From positions 1-33,047 of the IMG/VR virus record IMGVR_UViG_3300044729_000326: a DNA stretch of 33,047 nucleotides; one strand, given 5' to 3'. Shown here one piece after another: positions 1 to 33,047 of this stretch (within the stretch, counting starts at the first letter, position 1; each line of letters begins with the position of its first letter). The position numbers and the translations under genes were made by a program. This DNA comes from a virus. Below the pieces are notes generated by a model. The model was not told the DNA's origin. It did not search any database and saw nothing but the letters and a program-made list of their open reading frames with translations.

Positions 1-12
1 GTCCGAATTACC
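1..12. repeat. Left terminal 12-nt repeat (candidate cos end)
   Basis: The first 12 bases (GTCCGAATTACC) are identical to the last 12 (33036-33047). Joined, the ends read GGGGT-CCGAATT-ACCCC, a partial dyad. Lambda-type GpA terminases cut staggered 12-nt cohesive ends just upstream of the small terminase gene, and here that gene starts 55 nt inside the right end. A filled-in cohesive end is therefore plausible. An assembler overlap on a circular genome is the alternative. Confidence 0.6.
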
Positions 13-69
13 CCCAGATGCGATACCTGTGGGAGGACCCGTAGCACTGTTGAACATCGTCAGCGTGGA

Positions 70-2851: not shown

Positions 2852-4902
2852 GGCTCACCCAGCATAGAGCCACCTATCGTGGACTTTAGGAAGGGTGAGA
2901 ACATCAACTTTTCGACCGCATCGTGGACAGACTGTCTCGACAGCCCGCACTCCCGACCGATCTGGCGTATCTCCTCGACCGTCCAAACCAATGGCGTCTC
3001 GGACTTCTTCTGCCGCTCACGCAAGGCCGACAGGATCGTCCTTTGAGCCTTGCCTTGGGGCGAGTGAGCCACAGCCGCCTTGCCCGGAGCATTGGTCTCT
3101 CTCATCACCAGCGACTTCACCGCCTCGCCATACCTATCCGCCCGGCCTAGGCTGACCTCGTGCGCCTCGAAAGCGAGAGTCTGCATACTGGCCGTGTCCT
3201 TGAACCGCTCCCGCGTCACAGTCACCACCATTGCCTGCGCGTCTGGACGCTCGACTATGTACTCGGAGTCTGGGTTAGCCATCAGCGCGGATGCCCCTCG
3301 CGGACGCTTCGCGTCACCGTGGCCCGAATGCGCTACGAGCAATACCGTGGCCGTGTATCGCTCACGCAGTCCGATGGTCAGTCTGGACAGATACTCGGCA
3401 ACCTCTTGGTTGCTGTTCTCGTCGAGCCCGGCGCTGAACTTGCTAAAGGTGTCCACGATCACTAACGCAGGCCGTATACCAGCCTCATCAATGGCCTGCT
3501 GAAGCATCAGCATCTCATCGTCGGCGTTTAGGTTGGCGACGGACTCAAGCGCCATCAGTTTCAGTTCGAAAAGGTCTCGCCCCTTGCCGTGTTCCTGCAT
3601 CCATGCCTCGACTCTGCGACCTAGGCCAGCGCCCTCGCCAGAGAGGATCACGACAGGGTTATCGGCCATCGCAATCCGCATGGCCCAGTCAAGCGCGATA
3701 AACGACTTGAACGAGGCACGCGGCCCCGCGAGCACCGCCAGCACATTGGCCTCGATGACGTTGTGGATCAGCCATGTGGCCTCTCGCCGCTCCGCCACGA
3801 TCTCATTGATGGCCCGAAGAACGAGCCGACGTGCTGACACTGCGTGTACGCCCTGCGATACGCCGCGCGCCACCTCCGGCTCGAGGCTGCGGATCATTCC
3901 TTGAGCCTCTGGGACATCGCTGTAATCCACGCCCGGCTCTTCGCGCTGTGGTGGCCCAAGCCGTACTGCCTCCGGCATGGACACAAACCCGCCAGCCTTT
4001 GCCGCAGCAAACAGGCTCCCAAGCGTCACACCTCCTGTTCGGTCGAGGTGGAACGACTGCCATCGGTACTCGATGTCGGCCCGGCCTGCGTAGTTCGCTG
4101 GCAACTCTCCGGTCACCCCACCGCTTGACCAGGCATCCCAGAGTTCTAGGCCGTCATCCGCTCCGCCGCTCGCGTGGTGCAACGCCATGCCGACCATCAG
4201 CCATGCGTCGTAACTGCTCGGGTCAATGTACGCCACCGCCTCGGTGATGCGCGGCAGATCGCGCTGGAAGTCTTGACTGGTGCCCGGCTTCGGCGGCAGT
4301 TTCTTCGCCACCTCTGCGGGTAGTTCCAAGTCCATCCGGCGCTCGTCTATCAGTCCGGCTGGCAGCGGCTGTAGATCGTTCGCTGGCCCTTGCTGCCCAA
4401 AGTGCAGCGGCCACCAGATGATGTAGCCACCCTCTGCGCGGATGTCGAGTCCTTCGCGCTTGACTTTCCCAAGAGTGACGGAAACCCCGCCGCGAATCTT
4501 TACGCCATGCGGCAGGCTGAACAGGTAATGCCGGCCGCCACTACCGCCGCCGGTCTGGTGAATCTTCGTGCTGACCAGTTGCTGCTGGTTCTCCATGATC
4601 CAATCCTGCGCGGCCGTGCCTGCCGATTTGTGGTCATAGTCCACCACGGCAAGGCTCGTGCGGCTCCCGGTCGGCACGCCCACAAGCGCATCGGGATGGT
4701 CTGACCACCATCTGCGAATCTGCTGTTCGTCCTGCGTGGCGTCCTTGAATCCGCTCTTGGTCAGCGGACTTTTGGCACGCTGCACTCGCCCCGTGGCGTC
4801 GGTTTCGTCGCGGCGGCGGCATGGAAAGACTGGATACCGCTTGGCGAGTTCTAGGACTTTCTCCACCGAGACAACTGCGGTGAGTTCAACTGGGTTGCTC
4901 AT
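2848..4902 (-). CDS. Primase-polymerase / RepA-type helicase
   Basis: This 684-residue protein joins a bifunctional primase-polymerase domain to a RecA-fold helicase. The N-terminal part has VVDYDHK (Asp88 and Asp90, probable metal ligands) and SGGRHYLF (His125), hallmarks of Prim-Pol. A middle PriCT-like region (about 210-300) follows. The C-terminal ATPase has Walker A GPRASFKS (393-400) and Walker B ALVIVDT (479-485), as in AAA_25/RepA helicases, and a final winged-helix-like segment (IRQIGRECGLSRQSVHDAV). It should prime and unwind phage DNA. ATG 4902 overlaps the upstream stop as ATGA and was preferred over an ATG three codons earlier. The GTCCG array follows immediately. Confidence 0.92.
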   Translation of the reverse strand: MSNPVELTAVVSVEKVLELAKRYPVFPCRRRDETDATGRVQRAKSPLTKSGFKDATQDEQQIRRWWSDHPDALVGVPTGSRTSLAVVDYDHKSAGTAAQDWIMENQQQLVSTKIHQTGGGSGGRHYLFSLPHGVKIRGGVSVTLGKVKREGLDIRAEGGYIIWWPLHFGQQGPANDLQPLPAGLIDERRMDLELPAEVAKKLPPKPGTSQDFQRDLPRITEAVAYIDPSSYDAWLMVGMALHHASGGADDGLELWDAWSSGGVTGELPANYAGRADIEYRWQSFHLDRTGGVTLGSLFAAAKAGGFVSMPEAVRLGPPQREEPGVDYSDVPEAQGMIRSLEPEVARGVSQGVHAVSARRLVLRAINEIVAERREATWLIHNVIEANVLAVLAGPRASFKSFIALDWAMRIAMADNPVVILSGEGAGLGRRVEAWMQEHGKGRDLFELKLMALESVANLNADDEMLMLQQAIDEAGIRPALVIVDTFSKFSAGLDENSNQEVAEYLSRLTIGLRERYTATVLLVAHSGHGDAKRPRGASALMANPDSEYIVERPDAQAMVVTVTRERFKDTASMQTLAFEAHEVSLGRADRYGEAVKSLVMRETNAPGKAAVAHSPQGKAQRTILSALRERQKKSETPLVWTVEEIRQIGRECGLSRQSVHDAVEKLMFSPFLKSTIGGSMLGEP

Positions 4903-20965: not shown

Positions 20966-23365
20966 TTAGGTCGTGACGATCTCGTTGCACTCGGCGAACG
21001 ACTCGGGGTGCCGCACGGCGAAGTCGCAATCGTGGAACGCCACGACACGCACCGTACCGGCATTCGAACCGCTGTACTGATCGACGAGGATGTCGATACC
21101 CGACCACTGGCCGATGAGCAGATCGCTCCACACACCAAACAGCATGGCCGAGAGGCTGGAACCCGAACCTTTCGTGAGGTTCGAGGGAACCTGCTGCGAA
21201 ACGTAGATCGGGTAGCCGTACAGGTTCGCCATATCCGGGCCGAGGATGAAGTTGCCTTCCACGCCGCTCGACTGCCGAGAGGTCGTGGAGAGTTTCGCCT
21301 TCACCTGTCCGTTCGTGAGGAACGCCGCAGAGCCGGTCAACGCGTTGTCCGTCTCCACTTCCTTCACGAGGTTCACCACCATCGCCCAAGTCGGCGCAGC
21401 ACCGTTCGTGCCGAGCGTCACCGAGCCAATGCCCGACGTGTTGAGCACGCCGGTCGGCTTGTTGCTGCCCGAGCCAGCGACCGCAGCACCGTCCATCGCC
21501 ACGGCAATCGAGGTAGCCAAGTCATTGCGAACGAGGTTCTCGATGTCGAGCGACGACTGGAGCATCAAGCGGCGGCTGATGTCAACGTAGGCACCGAGGG
21601 TCTTCGGCGACATCGTGACTTGATCGAACGCCGGAGCGTTGGTGCTCTCCGTCGGTGCGCTGTTCTCGGCGACCCAGTAGGCCGAAGAAGCCGAGGTCTT
21701 GCGCGGGATGGCAACGTTACCGTTGAGGCCCGTGAGGAACTGCGCGCCGAGGGTGTTAAGCACCATCTTGTTACGCAGCACGTCGATGAACGACGCAGCC
21801 AGCAGATCGGTCGCAACGAGGTTGCCCGCCTTCGCCGTGCCAGAGGCCGTCGAGGTGGTCAGATCGCGCTTCCCGTACAGCACATCAACCGGAATCAAGA
21901 GACCGCGTGAGGTGCGGCCTTCCTTCTTCGCGGCGGCTTCGGACACTTCAAACTCGAAAGCCGCGTCCTCTTGGGCACGACGATCCTGCGGGTTCGACAA
22001 AGCCTTGATCGCACGAACGAACGAGAACGAGCGCACTTCCTTATCGGAGAGGCCGACCTCGTGGTCAACGTTCAGCGGCTTGGAGGCCACCTTGTCGAGC
22101 AACGCGCCACGGAACTGCTCGATCGAGGCTCCGTCACGAATCGCCGACTCGCCGAACTCGCGATGGTTGTGACGCGAGGCCAGATCCATGATCGCCGAAA
22201 CGCGGGCGCGTTCGGCCTTTGCTGCATCCTCACGGACGCTGTTGATTTCGTCAGACATTTTTGTCTCCTTGACAATGATTTTAGGTTCGGCAACCGGCGC
22301 AGTGTTGATCGCACGACCAACGCCGACGCTGGTATCTGCCGGGATAGATACGATACTAATTTCGAGCGGCATCCAACTGACTGCGCGGAAAACCTCCCGG
22401 TCTCCTTGCTTTCCGTCCGATACCATCTCGCTGATAACGTAACCGACAGACACGTTTGACCGTATGCCATCCTTTACGTCCTGCCAGATTTCCTCGGCTC
22501 GCGCACTTTTCCCAAAGCGCACGACAGCCCGCGCCACGCGGTCTGCTCCGAGGCTGATCTGCTCCACGACGCCGACCTGGTCGGCCATCTCGTGATCTAC
22601 AAGGAGCGGCGCACGGCCACTGCCAATAAACTCCATGTCGATTGAGCCGGGCGAGTGGTCGAGGATTTCCATGCCCCATCCGCGGTCGACCGCCATCTCG
22701 CTCGAGAAGGCCAACGTCGCACGACGCTGGTCTTCCATGATGGACGCACGCTCAAAGATCGCCGCGCGGAATACACGCTCGGTCGGCCCCTTGCGCTTGG
22801 CAGGGCCAGCGTAGTCCTCTTCATACGGTTCGTTGCCGTACATATCCTTGGGACGCTCGCCCTCGGCGAAGATTTCCTCGCCATCTTCGGCGGCTTCTTC
22901 CAGCGCCTCGATAGCCTCGTCCGCTTCCTCGCTTTCGTCCATGTCGTACTCCGACTTGGCGAATGTCACTGTAACGGTTGCCTCGTCCTCGACGACAGCG
23001 ACGACGTGCCTTGTTTCTACCTTGTCCATATTTCGTCCCTCATCTTCACGATCCAGTTCCGCGCTTTTTCGATTAGCCCAACTCTGACCGGGGTCTCCGC
23101 CCCAGAGTGCCCACGCGATACGCCCTGCGGACGGGTAGCCCTCTTCGCCCGGACGGAAGCCCTCGGCTTCTTTGTCGATTTCGTGTCTTGCAAAGTAACT
23201 CACCATCCTTCGGATCGTTTCGGGCGAAAGATTCGCTCGATTCTTAATGTCCCGAGCACGAGCAACGCCGACCTCTGTGCCGCCGCGTCCGAACTCTTCG
23301 CGCCACTCTAATCCGCGAGCGGCCTCTGCTGCCATTGCCTCTGTGGGCTTTGTGTCGACAGCCAT
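20966..23365 (-). CDS. Fused prohead protease and HK97-type major capsid protein
   Basis: This single 799-residue frame has three parts. Residues 28-100 carry a conserved phage domain (GVARARDIKNRANLS, GYPSAGRIAWALWGG). Residues about 200-350 are an HK97-type S78 prohead protease, with probable catalytic His258 (LLVDHE) and Ser306 (RSNVSVGY). Residues 370-799 are an HK97-fold capsid protein with a helical delta domain (MSDEINSVREDAAKAERAR) and the usual WVAENSAPTES and PKTLGAYVDISRRL segments. Strong internal ribosome sites precede Met370 and Met113, so free capsid and free protease may be made too. It overlaps the upstream fibre gene as TAATG. Confidence 0.92.
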   Translation of the reverse strand: MAVDTKPTEAMAAEAARGLEWREEFGRGGTEVGVARARDIKNRANLSPETIRRMVSYFARHEIDKEAEGFRPGEEGYPSAGRIAWALWGGDPGQSWANRKSAELDREDEGRNMDKVETRHVVAVVEDEATVTVTFAKSEYDMDESEEADEAIEALEEAAEDGEEIFAEGERPKDMYGNEPYEEDYAGPAKRKGPTERVFRAAIFERASIMEDQRRATLAFSSEMAVDRGWGMEILDHSPGSIDMEFIGSGRAPLLVDHEMADQVGVVEQISLGADRVARAVVRFGKSARAEEIWQDVKDGIRSNVSVGYVISEMVSDGKQGDREVFRAVSWMPLEISIVSIPADTSVGVGRAINTAPVAEPKIIVKETKMSDEINSVREDAAKAERARVSAIMDLASRHNHREFGESAIRDGASIEQFRGALLDKVASKPLNVDHEVGLSDKEVRSFSFVRAIKALSNPQDRRAQEDAAFEFEVSEAAAKKEGRTSRGLLIPVDVLYGKRDLTTSTASGTAKAGNLVATDLLAASFIDVLRNKMVLNTLGAQFLTGLNGNVAIPRKTSASSAYWVAENSAPTESTNAPAFDQVTMSPKTLGAYVDISRRLMLQSSLDIENLVRNDLATSIAVAMDGAAVAGSGSNKPTGVLNTSGIGSVTLGTNGAAPTWAMVVNLVKEVETDNALTGSAAFLTNGQVKAKLSTTSRQSSGVEGNFILGPDMANLYGYPIYVSQQVPSNLTKGSGSSLSAMLFGVWSDLLIGQWSGIDILVDQYSGSNAGTVRVVAFHDCDFAVRHPESFAECNEIVTT
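22256..22270 (-). promoter_or_regulatory. Internal ribosome binding site for free capsid protein
   Basis: On the minus strand AAGGAG (complement of 22265-22270) lies 6 nt before an in-frame ATG (22256-22258) at codon 370. Starting here gives a 430-residue protein that begins MSDEINSVRED at the delta domain, the normal size and start of a separate HK97 capsid protein. This is as strong as the tail tube signal, fitting the need for hundreds of copies. Confidence 0.72.
23027..23040 (-). promoter_or_regulatory. Possible internal ribosome binding site before the protease part
   Basis: GAGGGA on the minus strand (core at 23036-23040) lies 6 nt before ATG 23029 at codon 113. Starting here would omit the N-terminal domain and begin with MDKVETRHVVAV before the protease. 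It may give a shorter protease or be chance in a charged-residue coding stretch (Asp-Glu-Gly). Confidence 0.4.
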
Positions 23366-28599: not shown

Positions 28600-30711
28600 T
28601 TATGCTCCTTTCAGCAAAGCCATTTCGGCTTCCAGTTTCTCAATACGGGCCATTGCTTCTTGCAGGGCGACGGCGGCTTTTATTAGCAAGATGGACGATT
28701 TGACCGACTTGGTAGTGGTGCCAAGGTCGTTGCCCTCTGCGTCACGGTCGGCATGTTCGTCAACCAACCCCGGCGAGGTCTGCTCAAGTTCCTGCGCCAC
28801 AACACCCAACTGCGTGATTTGCTGCGGGTCATCCTTCATCTTGAACTTGCGGAACCGCACAGCCTTTATGTCTGCCCATTGCGAACCCGCGTCCACAATA
28901 TCGGTTTTCATCTTGGCATCGGAAATAGCGCCGTATGAATTGTTGGTGTTGGTGACATTGCCGTTGTTAAAAACATTAAAAGTATTGACGGCATTGGCAG
29001 TCCCGTACAAAAACAAAGCGTTTGTTCCCGCTGCGCGAGCGGTTGAAAGCGAAATGTTTGAACCAACTTGACTTCCGTTTGTATTTGAAATAACAACTGT
29101 ATCACCAGTTTGGTCTGTTCTTAATTCGTGATAAGCAGCCGTGCTGCCCTCATACGTCCCCGCATTGCTAAACTTGCTATAGCCCCCCGAGGTGATGCGG
29201 GCGCGTTCGGTAAGAGATGCGTCAAGCGCAGTGGAGAAAGTTAAAATTCCATCATTTGCAGACGCGCCGCCGCCAGTCTTGGTTCCGGTAATTCGCGCCA
29301 AATCTCCATTGCCGTTAATCCACGAAATATAACCAACGTTTTCACCTGCGTTATAAAGACGTATATATTCGCTATCAGATGAACTGTTCGTAGTTGTTTG
29401 AAGGTTTAGTTTTGCGCTGCCGGTTGTTCCACCGACAAACAAATTTGAACTCGCATCCAGCGTCATCGCCTGCGTGAGAGATTGTGACGCGCCTGCGCCA
29501 GAACTGTTGCTTACTGTAGATACATAAAACGCATGCGTACCTGCGTATTGCCGATACCGTGTGGCATATCCATTACCGATAAACTTGTCATTAAACGAAC
29601 TGTCAATATACGAGTTCTGCCCAATGAAAATGCGGTCATTGTTGTATTGAAAGAACGACCCGCCGCCATTCTGCAATGCTTGACTACCAGCCCCCCACGC
29701 ACTCGGCGTTACGCCCAGACCGAGGTTGCCATCTTTAGTCAAATCAAGAAGCGTTGTCGCGTTGTACAACACCAGAAGGTCATCATTGGCGTTGGAAAAA
29801 GTGCCTTGAAATGTCCAACTGTTTGTATCAGCGGTAAGTTTTAAATACGGGTTGTTGCCAGAACCCGAAGTCTTAATTTCTGCGTATGGATTACCGCTAG
29901 TGTTGACGAAGATATTCCCTGCAACTTCCAACTTTTGACCCGGCGAACTCGTCCCGATGCCGACGTTAATCCCCGACGCTGTGTAGAGCGTGGTGGAGGT
30001 GAGGCTCATTTTTTCAGTGCCGTTAAATCCAAACCGCAACGGATTGACAAACGTGGCGGATGCTGGAACTTCAATTTGCCAGCCGCCGCCATATGCCTGA
30101 AAATCAATGCCCACAAGTGCGCTTGCGCCAGAATTTTGATTCTGAATGAGCAACTTCGTGCCAGCGTTTTGGTCTTTTCTAACCTCCAGCGGAGACCCCG
30201 GCGTACTTGTCCCGATGCCGACGTTAGTTCCATCAAATACAAACGCACTCCCCGACGTCGCCACCTTGCTGCCGTTCAAAAACAACACGCCGTTGGCGGT
30301 GCCGCCGTTGAGCGTTACCGTCGAGGAGGTGGTAAGCGTCGTGAACGCGCCGGTCGATGCGCTGCTCGCGCCGATGCTTGTGGCATCAATGGTGCCGCCG
30401 TTGATGTCGATCGTAGTGACCGCGCCGCCGTTCGAGACCGTCGCGCCGCTAAAGGACACCGTGCCCGATGCCGTAAGGTTAGTGAACGTGCCCGCTGCGG
30501 CGGAGTTTGCGCCGATGGTTGTGCCGTCGATCGCGCCGGAATTGATATCGACGTTTGTTACGCCCGCGGTCATTCCTGCGCCGACGAGTGCGCTGGCGGT
30601 GATCTTTTTCGTCTCCGTTGCGCTCGTGTCCACAATCGGGAGCACGTCCGTTGAGGCGGCTACGTCTCCTTGGGCGAGCGATGTCAGTGCGCTGATTTTT
30701 TTATCGGCCAT
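28600..30711 (-). CDS. Tail fibre/spike with S74 intramolecular chaperone
   Basis: This 703-residue fibre begins MADKKISALTSLAQGDVAAS, a common attachment region, and continues with beta repeats (NVGIGTSTPGSPLEV and NVGIGTSSPGQKLEV). The last 112 residues are a Peptidase_S74 endosialidase-type chaperone with SDAKMKTDI (Ser597, Lys602) and QLGVVAQELEQ, ending in a coiled coil. The chaperone trimerises the fibre and then cuts itself off before the Ser. A long AT-rich stretch (about 29,200-30,000) in the middle suggests exchange of the receptor-binding part. GGAG lies 7 nt before ATG. Confidence 0.92.
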   Translation of the reverse strand: MADKKISALTSLAQGDVAASTDVLPIVDTSATETKKITASALVGAGMTAGVTNVDINSGAIDGTTIGANSAAAGTFTNLTASGTVSFSGATVSNGGAVTTIDINGGTIDATSIGASSASTGAFTTLTTSSTVTLNGGTANGVLFLNGSKVATSGSAFVFDGTNVGIGTSTPGSPLEVRKDQNAGTKLLIQNQNSGASALVGIDFQAYGGGWQIEVPASATFVNPLRFGFNGTEKMSLTSTTLYTASGINVGIGTSSPGQKLEVAGNIFVNTSGNPYAEIKTSGSGNNPYLKLTADTNSWTFQGTFSNANDDLLVLYNATTLLDLTKDGNLGLGVTPSAWGAGSQALQNGGGSFFQYNNDRIFIGQNSYIDSSFNDKFIGNGYATRYRQYAGTHAFYVSTVSNSSGAGASQSLTQAMTLDASSNLFVGGTTGSAKLNLQTTTNSSSDSEYIRLYNAGENVGYISWINGNGDLARITGTKTGGGASANDGILTFSTALDASLTERARITSGGYSKFSNAGTYEGSTAAYHELRTDQTGDTVVISNTNGSQVGSNISLSTARAAGTNALFLYGTANAVNTFNVFNNGNVTNTNNSYGAISDAKMKTDIVDAGSQWADIKAVRFRKFKMKDDPQQITQLGVVAQELEQTSPGLVDEHADRDAEGNDLGTTTKSVKSSILLIKAAVALQEAMARIEKLEAEMALLKGA

Positions 30712-30714
30712 GCG

Positions 30715-32544
30715 TTATCTCCATCCGTTCATCCACCCGCCGCGAGAAGGCACGGGGCGACGTTGTGGTTTTTGCGGTTGTACTGTGACTTGCGTTTCGG
30801 TAACTGGTTCGACCTTGCGGTTCGGCAATATCATCGGCCCGTTGCGTCCTATGAATGCTGCGTAGGCGTAGACCAAGCAGTCGAGGGCTTCCGTGCGACT
30901 GCCCGAGGAGCGCGGCTTATAAGACCGCACGCGCCGCCCCTGCACCATGCGATAGATCAATGTCTCGGCGGTCAATTGGTCAAAATAGACCTCATCGACC
31001 GAGACGGGAAAATGAATGTATCCCGCCCCCGGTTGGTGTACGCGCTTCATGCGCCCGTACAGCACGTCTTTGGCTGTATCAACACCGACTATAAAAACCT
31101 GCGCCGAGGTTTTCCCTGCCCGTCCCGCTGACTTCGGCCAGATCAACCGACCGAAGCCACCGGCTCCCTTGATCGCCCACACGCGCCGCGCTTTGCGTTT
31201 AGCGCAGTAGGCATAGACTTGCTGCGTGAAGTGACCGCCAGAGTCGATAGCCTGGGCCTCGATCAGTAGCGGTCGTCCGTCTTCGGTCTCGCGTTTGCGA
31301 GCCATGTATCCGTCAAGATCGTGCCACAGCGAATCGCTGCCAGGATCACCTCGCAGTACGCCGTGCTCGACAATCCATGTCTCCTCGTCCTTGCCGAAGC
31401 CGACGATAGTTACCTCTAGCCGGTCGTCCTGTACGTCTACGCCAGCCGTGAGCATCAGCACCTGTTCTGGGATGCTCTGTGCGGTGTACGGTTCGCGTCG
31501 CTGCGCGAGTCCTACCGTCTCCACCTGTTCGCCGCGTTCCTCGTAGGTTTCCCCAAGCGCCGTGTTTATCCACGTTTGCAGCGTTTCGGGAAACCTTTTC
31601 GCTTGAATAAACGCGACCGCCATCTCCGCCCATGTAGACCACGGAGAGTACAACTCGCTTATGTGGAACGATGCGATACCCGAGAATGGCTTGCTCCCGC
31701 GCCACTCGCCCGCCTGTAACATCTCCGCCTTGTCCGCCTCGGTCAGTATCGCACCGCACGCCACACAGACGTACTCGGCTAACTCTGGCTGACCCTCGGG
31801 CCATTTAACCTGTGCCCACACGAGCCGCTGGAACTCGCGGCAGTGCGAGCATGGCACATAGTAGAACCGCTGGTCGCCCGACTCGAAACCGGCCTCGATG
31901 CGGCTCGATCCTTTGATGGTCGGGGTCGATCCTGCCAAGACTTTGCGACTCCAAAACGTAGCCGTTCGCTTACGGCCCAGCGAGATCGGATCGCCCTCTG
32001 TGCCCGCGCTCGACGGATACCTGTCTACCTCATCGAATAACACGATCCGAATGGGCCGCGAGGCCAGACCCGAAGGACTATTCGCTCCGGCCACCGTCAG
32101 ATGCCCGCCGGTGAACTTCTTGTGCAGCAGCGTGTTGCCGCTGTCGCGTGCCTTGGGGTCTGCGATCCGTTCGGCCAGTGCTGGCGTGTCCCGCACCATC
32201 GGTGCGAATCTGTCTTTGCTCCACGACTCGGCCATCTCTAGCGTCGGCTGCACGAGCAGCATCGGCGCAGGGTCTTGGTGAACGTGATACCCAATCACGT
32301 TGTTGAGAATCTCCGTCCAGCCTACCTGTGCGGATTTCTGAATCCAGACCTCTTTGACCGTTTCATCCGTGACGGCATCCATAATGCCGCGTTGGTACGG
32401 TGCTCGAGAGGTACGCCATACGCCGGGTTCGGCGGATGCCTCGCTAGATAGTCTCCGGTATTGGTCGGCCCACTGGCTCACCGTCAATTTCGGTGGCGGC
32501 TTGAGAATCGACACTAGCCTCTGTCGAATCTGCGGCAAGTTCAT
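30715..32544 (-). CDS. Terminase large subunit, GpA family
   Basis: The protein (609 residues from Met 32544) packages DNA and cuts the ends. It begins with the GpA-like LKPPPKLTVSQWADQYRRLSSEAS region. The ATPase Walker A-like loop is QKSAQVGWTE (69-78) and Walker B is LFDEVD (169-174). The nuclease half includes MLTAGVDVQDDRLEV. A CSHC...CVAC cluster is typical of this family. The start is uncertain: ATG 32544 overlaps the small subunit by 101 nt, the frame is open to a TTG at 32610, and GTG 32514 is also possible. GpA enzymes cut at cos. Confidence 0.93.
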   Translation of the reverse strand: MNLPQIRQRLVSILKPPPKLTVSQWADQYRRLSSEASAEPGVWRTSRAPYQRGIMDAVTDETVKEVWIQKSAQVGWTEILNNVIGYHVHQDPAPMLLVQPTLEMAESWSKDRFAPMVRDTPALAERIADPKARDSGNTLLHKKFTGGHLTVAGANSPSGLASRPIRIVLFDEVDRYPSSAGTEGDPISLGRKRTATFWSRKVLAGSTPTIKGSSRIEAGFESGDQRFYYVPCSHCREFQRLVWAQVKWPEGQPELAEYVCVACGAILTEADKAEMLQAGEWRGSKPFSGIASFHISELYSPWSTWAEMAVAFIQAKRFPETLQTWINTALGETYEERGEQVETVGLAQRREPYTAQSIPEQVLMLTAGVDVQDDRLEVTIVGFGKDEETWIVEHGVLRGDPGSDSLWHDLDGYMARKRETEDGRPLLIEAQAIDSGGHFTQQVYAYCAKRKARRVWAIKGAGGFGRLIWPKSAGRAGKTSAQVFIVGVDTAKDVLYGRMKRVHQPGAGYIHFPVSVDEVYFDQLTAETLIYRMVQGRRVRSYKPRSSGSRTEALDCLVYAYAAFIGRNGPMILPNRKVEPVTETQVTVQPQKPQRRPVPSRGGWMNGWR

Positions 32545-32980
32545 CAAGGGCTGAATAGACTTCTGCTCTAATTCTGCCGACGATGATTGCTGGCTCTGCT
32601 GTGTTGACAAGTTGTGGCCCTAGTTTGGTAGGCATCGAAAGTAATTTCGCACGAACCGCAGCGAGCACTCCCGACCACATCTCAATCATTTGTTTTGTGT
32701 CGGCCAACTCTCCGCGTCGCACTCGATTTTCGGTTTCGACTTTTTCGGCTTGCGCGGCTGCGAGTCTTTCGCGCTGATTGTTATGCTCGCGCTCTCCGTT
32801 GCCGCCAGAGGATCGTTGCAAAAACCACGCGACGAACTCTTGCGCGTTGTATGTCCCATCAGCATTGCGTGGCGCGTCGGCCCAGTCGCGGATGCTGCGC
32901 GAAGTTACACCGCAGATAAAAGCAATCTGCTGCTGATTTAACTTCGTAAGTTCAACGTCTGCTGCGCCGCGGTTAGCCAT
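32444..32980 (-). CDS. Terminase small subunit, Nu1-like
   Basis: This 178-residue protein recognises the packaging site. The N-terminus has a helix-turn-helix (NQQQIAFICGVTSRSIRDWADAP) as in Nu1-type subunits, then a coiled coil (NQRERLAAAQAEKVETENRVRRGEL) and TKQMIEMWSGVLAAVRAKLLSM, the conserved middle of this family. The C-terminus, which contacts the large subunit, overlaps that gene by about 100 nt. ATG 32980 lacks a good Shine-Dalgarno; the upstream 67 nt reach the terminal repeat. Confidence 0.88.
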   Translation of the reverse strand: MANRGAADVELTKLNQQQIAFICGVTSRSIRDWADAPRNADGTYNAQEFVAWFLQRSSGGNGEREHNNQRERLAAAQAEKVETENRVRRGELADTKQMIEMWSGVLAAVRAKLLSMPTKLGPQLVNTAEPAIIVGRIRAEVYSALDELAADSTEASVDSQAATEIDGEPVGRPIPETI

Positions 32981-33047
32981 GCGATTGTTTCATGGAAGGA
33001 ACACTAGAGAGTTTTTTATCTAGGAAAACATCGGGGTCCGAATTACC
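32981..33047. other. Right end: small-terminase leader and candidate cos site
   Basis: This 67-bp non-coding end includes the second copy of GTCCGAATTACC (33036-33047), preceded by GGG. CTAGA and TCTAG form a short inverted repeat around an AT-rich stretch (33004-33023) that could be a bend or terminase contact. In lambda, cos lies just upstream of the small terminase gene; here the distance is 55 nt. Confidence 0.55.
33036..33047. repeat. Right terminal 12-nt repeat (candidate cos end)
   Basis: This is identical to bases 1-12. Twelve bases is the length of lambda-type cohesive overhangs, and shorter than typical assembler overlaps. If the two copies are one site, the circular genome is 33,035 bp. 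Confidence 0.6.

Follow-up and report, generated by a model that had tools for sequence, protein, structure and literature searches.

The nicking site, cosN, is reported to have two-fold symmetry in phage lambda and in many phages like it, and in the lambda system the small terminase subunit (TerS) bound at R3 (bp 50–65) is thought to anchor the large subunit (TerL) that nicks the bottom strand (accessible sections of PMC9026076). The symmetry is therefore to be taken as typical of cosN, not as required. The lambda system tolerates alterations to the right half of cosN, and phage N15 has a lambda-like cos (accessible sections of PMC4669245).

Roseobacter phage CRP-406 (PV211008), of the CRP-822 type, carries the same 12-mer as the DNA analysed here, with GGTTCTTCT upstream and CTAG downstream. 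The site lies between the genes for a minor tail protein and TerS, TerL is ~52% identical to that of our phage, and the record is given as circular and opened elsewhere. The words "cos" and "cohesive" are absent from the main text, as far as it was accessible, of the paper on CRP-822-type phages (PMC12629253). A Blast search of annotated phages with the 67-nt cos core gave six records at E values up to 10 and was useful for CRP-406 and perhaps Psul1; no similar cos site was found in the Psul1 or CRP-811 stretches that were scanned. In a literature search whose coverage mostly excludes subscription journals, GGTAATTCGGAC or its complement occurred only in a plant paper, and no paper was found that names this shared 12-mer.

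The stretch of DNA analysed here (the window) is an entire virus record of 33,047 bases. Its first and last 12 bases are both GTCCGAATTACC; the border is exactly 12 nt long and the genome unit is 33,035 bp. No third copy of GTCCGAATTACC, even with one mismatch, and no copy of its reverse complement is present in the window. Given the base composition of the window, a border of at least 12 nt has a chance of ~1e-7. On the minus strand, GGTAATTCGGAC comes first and is followed by CCCGATG; TerS starts at base 68, and TerL overlaps the end of TerS (Table 1). The initial annotation had reported identical 12-nt ends and a small terminase gene 55 nt from the repeat, and both observations hold. TerS has no Pfam match. 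TerL contains a GpA_ATPase domain (E 3.8e-94) and a GpA_nuclease domain (E 2.2e-89), both above the cut-off. Elsewhere in the window, the region between TerL and the portal gene (28600–30711) encodes a tail-fibre-like protein that contains a Peptidase_S74 chaperone domain, and a single 799-aa ORF (20966–23365) bears both a prohead protease domain (PF04586) and a major capsid domain (PF05065).

Table 1. Features of the putative cos region and the terminase genes in the window.
Feature	Position	Strand	Evidence
Left cohesive end, cosN GGTAATTCGGAC, predicted first 12 nt of the packaged molecule	33036..33047	-	Exact border; starts of relatives
Right cohesive end, formed by the other copy of the 12-mer (putative filled-in overhang)	1..12	-	Border; right ends of relatives
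cosQ-like GGGTCCT box; in the joined site, 21 nt upstream of the left nick	34..40	-	Same 7-mer as lambda
CTAG box, 12 nt beyond the nick in the bottom strand	33020..33023	-	Spacing as in lambda (CTA) and type-2 relatives
TTCCTTC, candidate TerS-binding (cosB/R3-like) box, bp 47–53	32995..33001	-	Tracks TerS type; putative function
TerS, small terminase subunit, 178 aa	32444..32980	-	phrog_57, E 4.6e-25
TerL, large terminase subunit, GpA family	30715..32610	-	phrog_15, E 1.4e-262; PF05876, PF20454

The cos had been judged unlike that of lambda. This is correct for the 12-mer, which is GGGCGGCGACCT in lambda and GGTAATTCGGAC in the window, but not for the layout. The GGGTCCT box, which we take to be the core of lambda cosQ, the nick spacing, and the CTA box are all lambda-like. 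In lambda (NC_001416), 23 nt separate the end of GGGTCCT from the left nick, compared with 21 nt in the window, and the start of CTA is 12 nt beyond the second nick, as is that of CTAG in the window. In addition, both have a GpA-type TerL, TerS and then TerL after the left end, and an overhang of 12 nt, which is predicted in the case of the window. An overall likeness to the lambda site was considered and rejected: of 100 nick-registered positions 30 are identical, against a background of 24.9 (sd 4.3), and this value is reached or surpassed at 3,433 of 23,900 control positions. Only the spaced boxes match lambda and the rest of the 100 bp does not, indicating a lambda-like layout with its own 12-mer.

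A partial dyad across the joined ends, also proposed in the initial annotation, is no better than chance. Six of 16 cosN positions are symmetric in the window, compared with ten of 16 in lambda; 34% of all 16-mers in the window have six or more symmetric positions, and by this measure the window cosN lacks two-fold symmetry. The distance between the left nick and the start of TerS is 67 nt in the window and 190 nt in lambda, which leaves no room upstream of TerS for a lambda-type R3-I1-R2-R1 cosB. The three R sites and the IHF site of lambda have no clear counterpart in the window, where there is a single R-like box only.

Relatives were collected by a TerL search of IMG/VR, and the best 80 of 90 relatives were used as 80 loci. 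Besides the cosN of the window (type 1), a second cosN, GGTTACGCGGC(C) (type 2), is present in phages with near-identical terminase. A site was called when there were at most two mismatches to either cosN type and CTA or GTA at the right spacing. By this rule, 21 of the 80 contigs, representing 19 sample numbers, start at cosN position 1 or 2; the site is internal in 19 of the 80, including a weak match in L073, and there is none in 40 of the 80. Contigs that cross the site (18–19 of 80) are expected for intracellular, annealed, or prophage DNA and are not diagnostic. By eye, eight of the 40 rule-negative contigs also have a boundary at the site: L010 starts one base inside, L071 has a divergent site, and L007, L019, L032, L033, L042, and L046 have a tail in place of the overhang. 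Two further contigs (L041 and L052) start ~20 nt inside.

The six tailed left ends lack the overhang, and their short tails, in which 47 of 48 nt are purines, abut the next expected base exactly. In the type-1 relatives (L019, L032, L033, and L042) these are 3′ tails at the recessed position, and in L046 and L007 the type-2 tails adjoin the base that follows GGTTACGCGGC. The type-2 site of G010 (35,811 bp; 177 of 178 TerS residues and 621 of 631 TerL residues identical to the window) has a left tail as well as a right-end pyrimidine tail, CCTCCTCTT, straight after ...CTCGCG. The tail added by single-strand 3′-tailing libraries is rich in C and T. Such libraries have been used for viromes and leave low-complexity tails (accessible sections of PMC6511391). 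Judging from the composition of the tails, the samples with tailed ends were probably prepared with that library kit. Pyrimidine tails on both 3′ ends, inside the overhang, fit a library of this kind made on 5′-overhang DNA and indicate this polarity for the relatives. For the window, they point indirectly to 5′ overhangs of 12 nt, the polarity being drawn from the tails of relatives and not from the window's own library.

Cohesive ends with 3′ overhangs exist in HK97-type phages, and the sequence of a contig alone is silent on polarity. However, 3′ overhangs would be lost in end repair, yet the 12-mer is kept at both contig ends. Moreover, either 3′ overhangs or a blunt 12-bp repeat would place the tails elsewhere than observed. 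With 3′ overhangs the tails are expected outside the 12-mer, but they are found at its inner edge on the left in the four type-1 relatives and at the inner edge of both ends in the type-2 site of G010. We therefore regard 3′ overhangs as very unlikely, and 5′ overhangs as the preferred reading.

Metagenome contigs break arbitrarily, and variable flanks around a conserved site could favour a break there, in which case the 12-nt border would be a coincidence of assembly or chance and the contig would merely have broken near the terminase. We consider this extremely improbable, given the low chance of such a border and the number of relatives that start at the same or the adjacent base. Where the first bases of a contig align to the window, its start can be placed: seven such contigs start at base 1 of the minus strand, and no two of them share any other start. 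If variable flanks had caused the break, it would not hit exact bases common to contigs that are only ~74–77% identical to the window (L022 and L044). On the other side of the site, seven other contigs, out of 33 stretches found by the upstream pattern, end exactly 12 nt on, where the 12-mer, or a one-base variant of it, has its last base. The border itself is repeated in a distant record of 32,611 bp (G003), which has GGTAATTCGGAC at 2–13 and 32600–32611 and a TerL ~65% identical to the window over a short stretch. Two copies of GGTAATTCGGAC are also present in G001, 34,265 bp apart. The right end of G002 (L384) extends ten bases, GACTCCCCAG, past the 12-mer; they are partly complementary to the preceding sequence and are perhaps a fold-back artefact. 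The ends are fixed to single-base precision in independent contigs, at one site adjoining TerS. There is hardly any case for a T7-like duplication giving a blunt direct terminal repeat of 12 bp, or for headful packaging that begins at a preferred site: the same contig would result from a 12-bp repeat in double-stranded form, but the tails lie inside the repeat and not at its outer edge, headful packaging lacks sharp right ends such as the seven exact ones seen here, and the terminase is of the GpA type, not the T7 or headful type.

The window is very probably the complete linear genome of a tailed phage, derived from virions and opened at a lambda-type cos with cohesive ends. The proposal in the initial annotation of a cos-packaged genome broken at cos gains strong support from the boundary bases shared by independent contigs, from single-copy contigs that cross the site, and from the 3′ tails of relatives. 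The comparison of the joined site in related genomes, which it had also suggested, gives contig boundaries at the same base as well as an unbroken alignment of L054 (97% identical) through the joined ends, with a single 12-mer.

The steps of packaging can be outlined for the window phage on the model of the lambda system. TerS bound at the box ~47 bp inside, together with the GpA-type TerL, would act on concatemeric DNA, and the terminase would nick twice, 12 bp apart (CTGGG^GGTAATTCGGAC^CCCGATG). The left end, on the TerS/TerL side, would enter the capsid first, and packaging would halt at the next cos, helped by cosQ (GGGTCCT). The packaged molecule would carry 12-nt 5′ single-stranded ends. 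The 12-mer would stand at both ends of the contig because end repair filled in these overhangs.

The two cosN types occur with almost the same terminase. L004 and L005 (type 2) share 178 of 178 TerS residues and 624 of 631 TerL residues with the window, the latter count being one too low because the start codon was read as M in one copy only. Likewise, L044 (type 1) has 628–631 of 636 TerL residues and 174–175 of 178 TerS residues in common with L043 and L045 (type 2). The type-2 left ends of L003, L004, L006, and L018 start with GGTTACG, and both type-2 right-end contigs (L376 and L378) stop after GGTTACGCGGC. These positions fit a type-2 overhang of 11 nt, compared with 12 nt in type 1. As far as N15 is described in the accessible sections of PMC4669245, the two cosN types differ more here, and they differ also in the overhang length suggested by the contig ends.

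CTAG, or CTA in lambda, lies 12 nt from the bottom nick in type 1, type 2, and lambda alike. TTCCTTC lies 33–34 nt after the bottom nick. All 14 loci with a window-like TerS have it, whichever their cosN type, compared with 0 of 27 loci with another TerS, a tally that does not amount to 41 independent cases because the loci are related. The box goes with the TerS type, not with the cosN type. This pattern fits an arrangement in which the TerS box and the bottom nick would be fixed while the sequence of cosN and the top nick would be free to change. Since the TerS-side box and the distance between the bottom nick and CTAG are nearly fixed, the TerS side would be the enzyme's point of reference for measuring, and the top nick would move.

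An HNH endonuclease was considered as the cause of the second cosN and rejected. In L043 and L045, a cosN of this kind is followed immediately by TerS, indicating that HNH is not required for type 2. The HNH ORF (~16–840; Pfam HNH E 1e-11 in L046) is located between the type-2 cos and TerS in L003 and L046, and L004, L006, L007, and L018 have the same spacing as this insertion. In L012, ParB-like and Mom-like DNA-modification ORFs (62–1238) are located between cos and a different TerS; its TerL is still ~97% identical to the window over residues from 31 on.

The pattern of GGTAATTCGGAC plus CTAG is present in at least 119 stretches. Among the matches listed, 89 of 110 newly numbered loci are cos-like, that is, they have CTAG exactly at +25 plus a cosQ-like box or a contig edge. 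TerL is found downstream on the same strand in 82 of these 89 loci and downstream in two of the 21 listed loci that are not cos-like, an association that serves as a consistency check because the profile used to find TerL derives from these loci. The seven listed cos-like loci without TerL have 58 to 2,567 nt of downstream sequence. Where CTAG is at +25 and enough upstream sequence is present, the cosQ-like box among the matches listed is GGGTCC in 42 of 58 sites and GGTTC[CT] in 12 of 58; where CTAG is elsewhere, 17 of 17 listed sites have neither.

In bacterial genomes, the pattern of cosQ plus the 12-mer gave 36 stretches, from Proteobacteria and Acidobacteria among others. TAG is present at +26 to +28 in 18 of the 36. 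Of 37 sites, 18 have a TerL match; the stretches of the other 19 gave none, and six of these have less than 1 kb downstream. A scan with the pattern CGCGGGTTACGCGG was discarded, as it gave mostly chance matches (22 of 123 sites pass a loose filter, and few of these 22 are real cos); a stricter version gave five stretches, and further pattern scans gave no new tailed ends. One stretch from a bacterial bin (L234; JAUILK010000067.1) has two GGTAATTCGGAC sites 2.6 kb apart, and its 8 kb contain capsid-protease and primase-like genes with no TerL match; it is possibly a phage satellite.

Carriers of the 12-mer have TerL identities to the window down to ~27% (~27–31% in the most distant). On balance, we favour a joint reading: the type-1 12-mer, almost unchanged in phages and prophages where TerL is only ~30% identical, would be a very old cos code common to them all, with lambda cos as an offshoot, and one lambda-type terminase lineage would naturally cut two very different cosN at two overhang lengths.

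As judged from sequence, the site in the window is very probably another lambda-type cos; less ordinary are the spread of the 12-mer and the switch of cosN with an apparent change in overhang length. The window would thereby be a complete virion genome with known ends. The signature GGGTCCT or GGTTCT, ~21 nt, GGTAATTCGGAC, 12 nt, CTAG would locate the cos, the direction of packaging, and the true ends, and may be applied to many uncultivated phages and prophages. In addition, natural swaps of cosN under a near-constant terminase would make it testable whether the nick is set by the sequence of cosN or by the distance from bound TerS.
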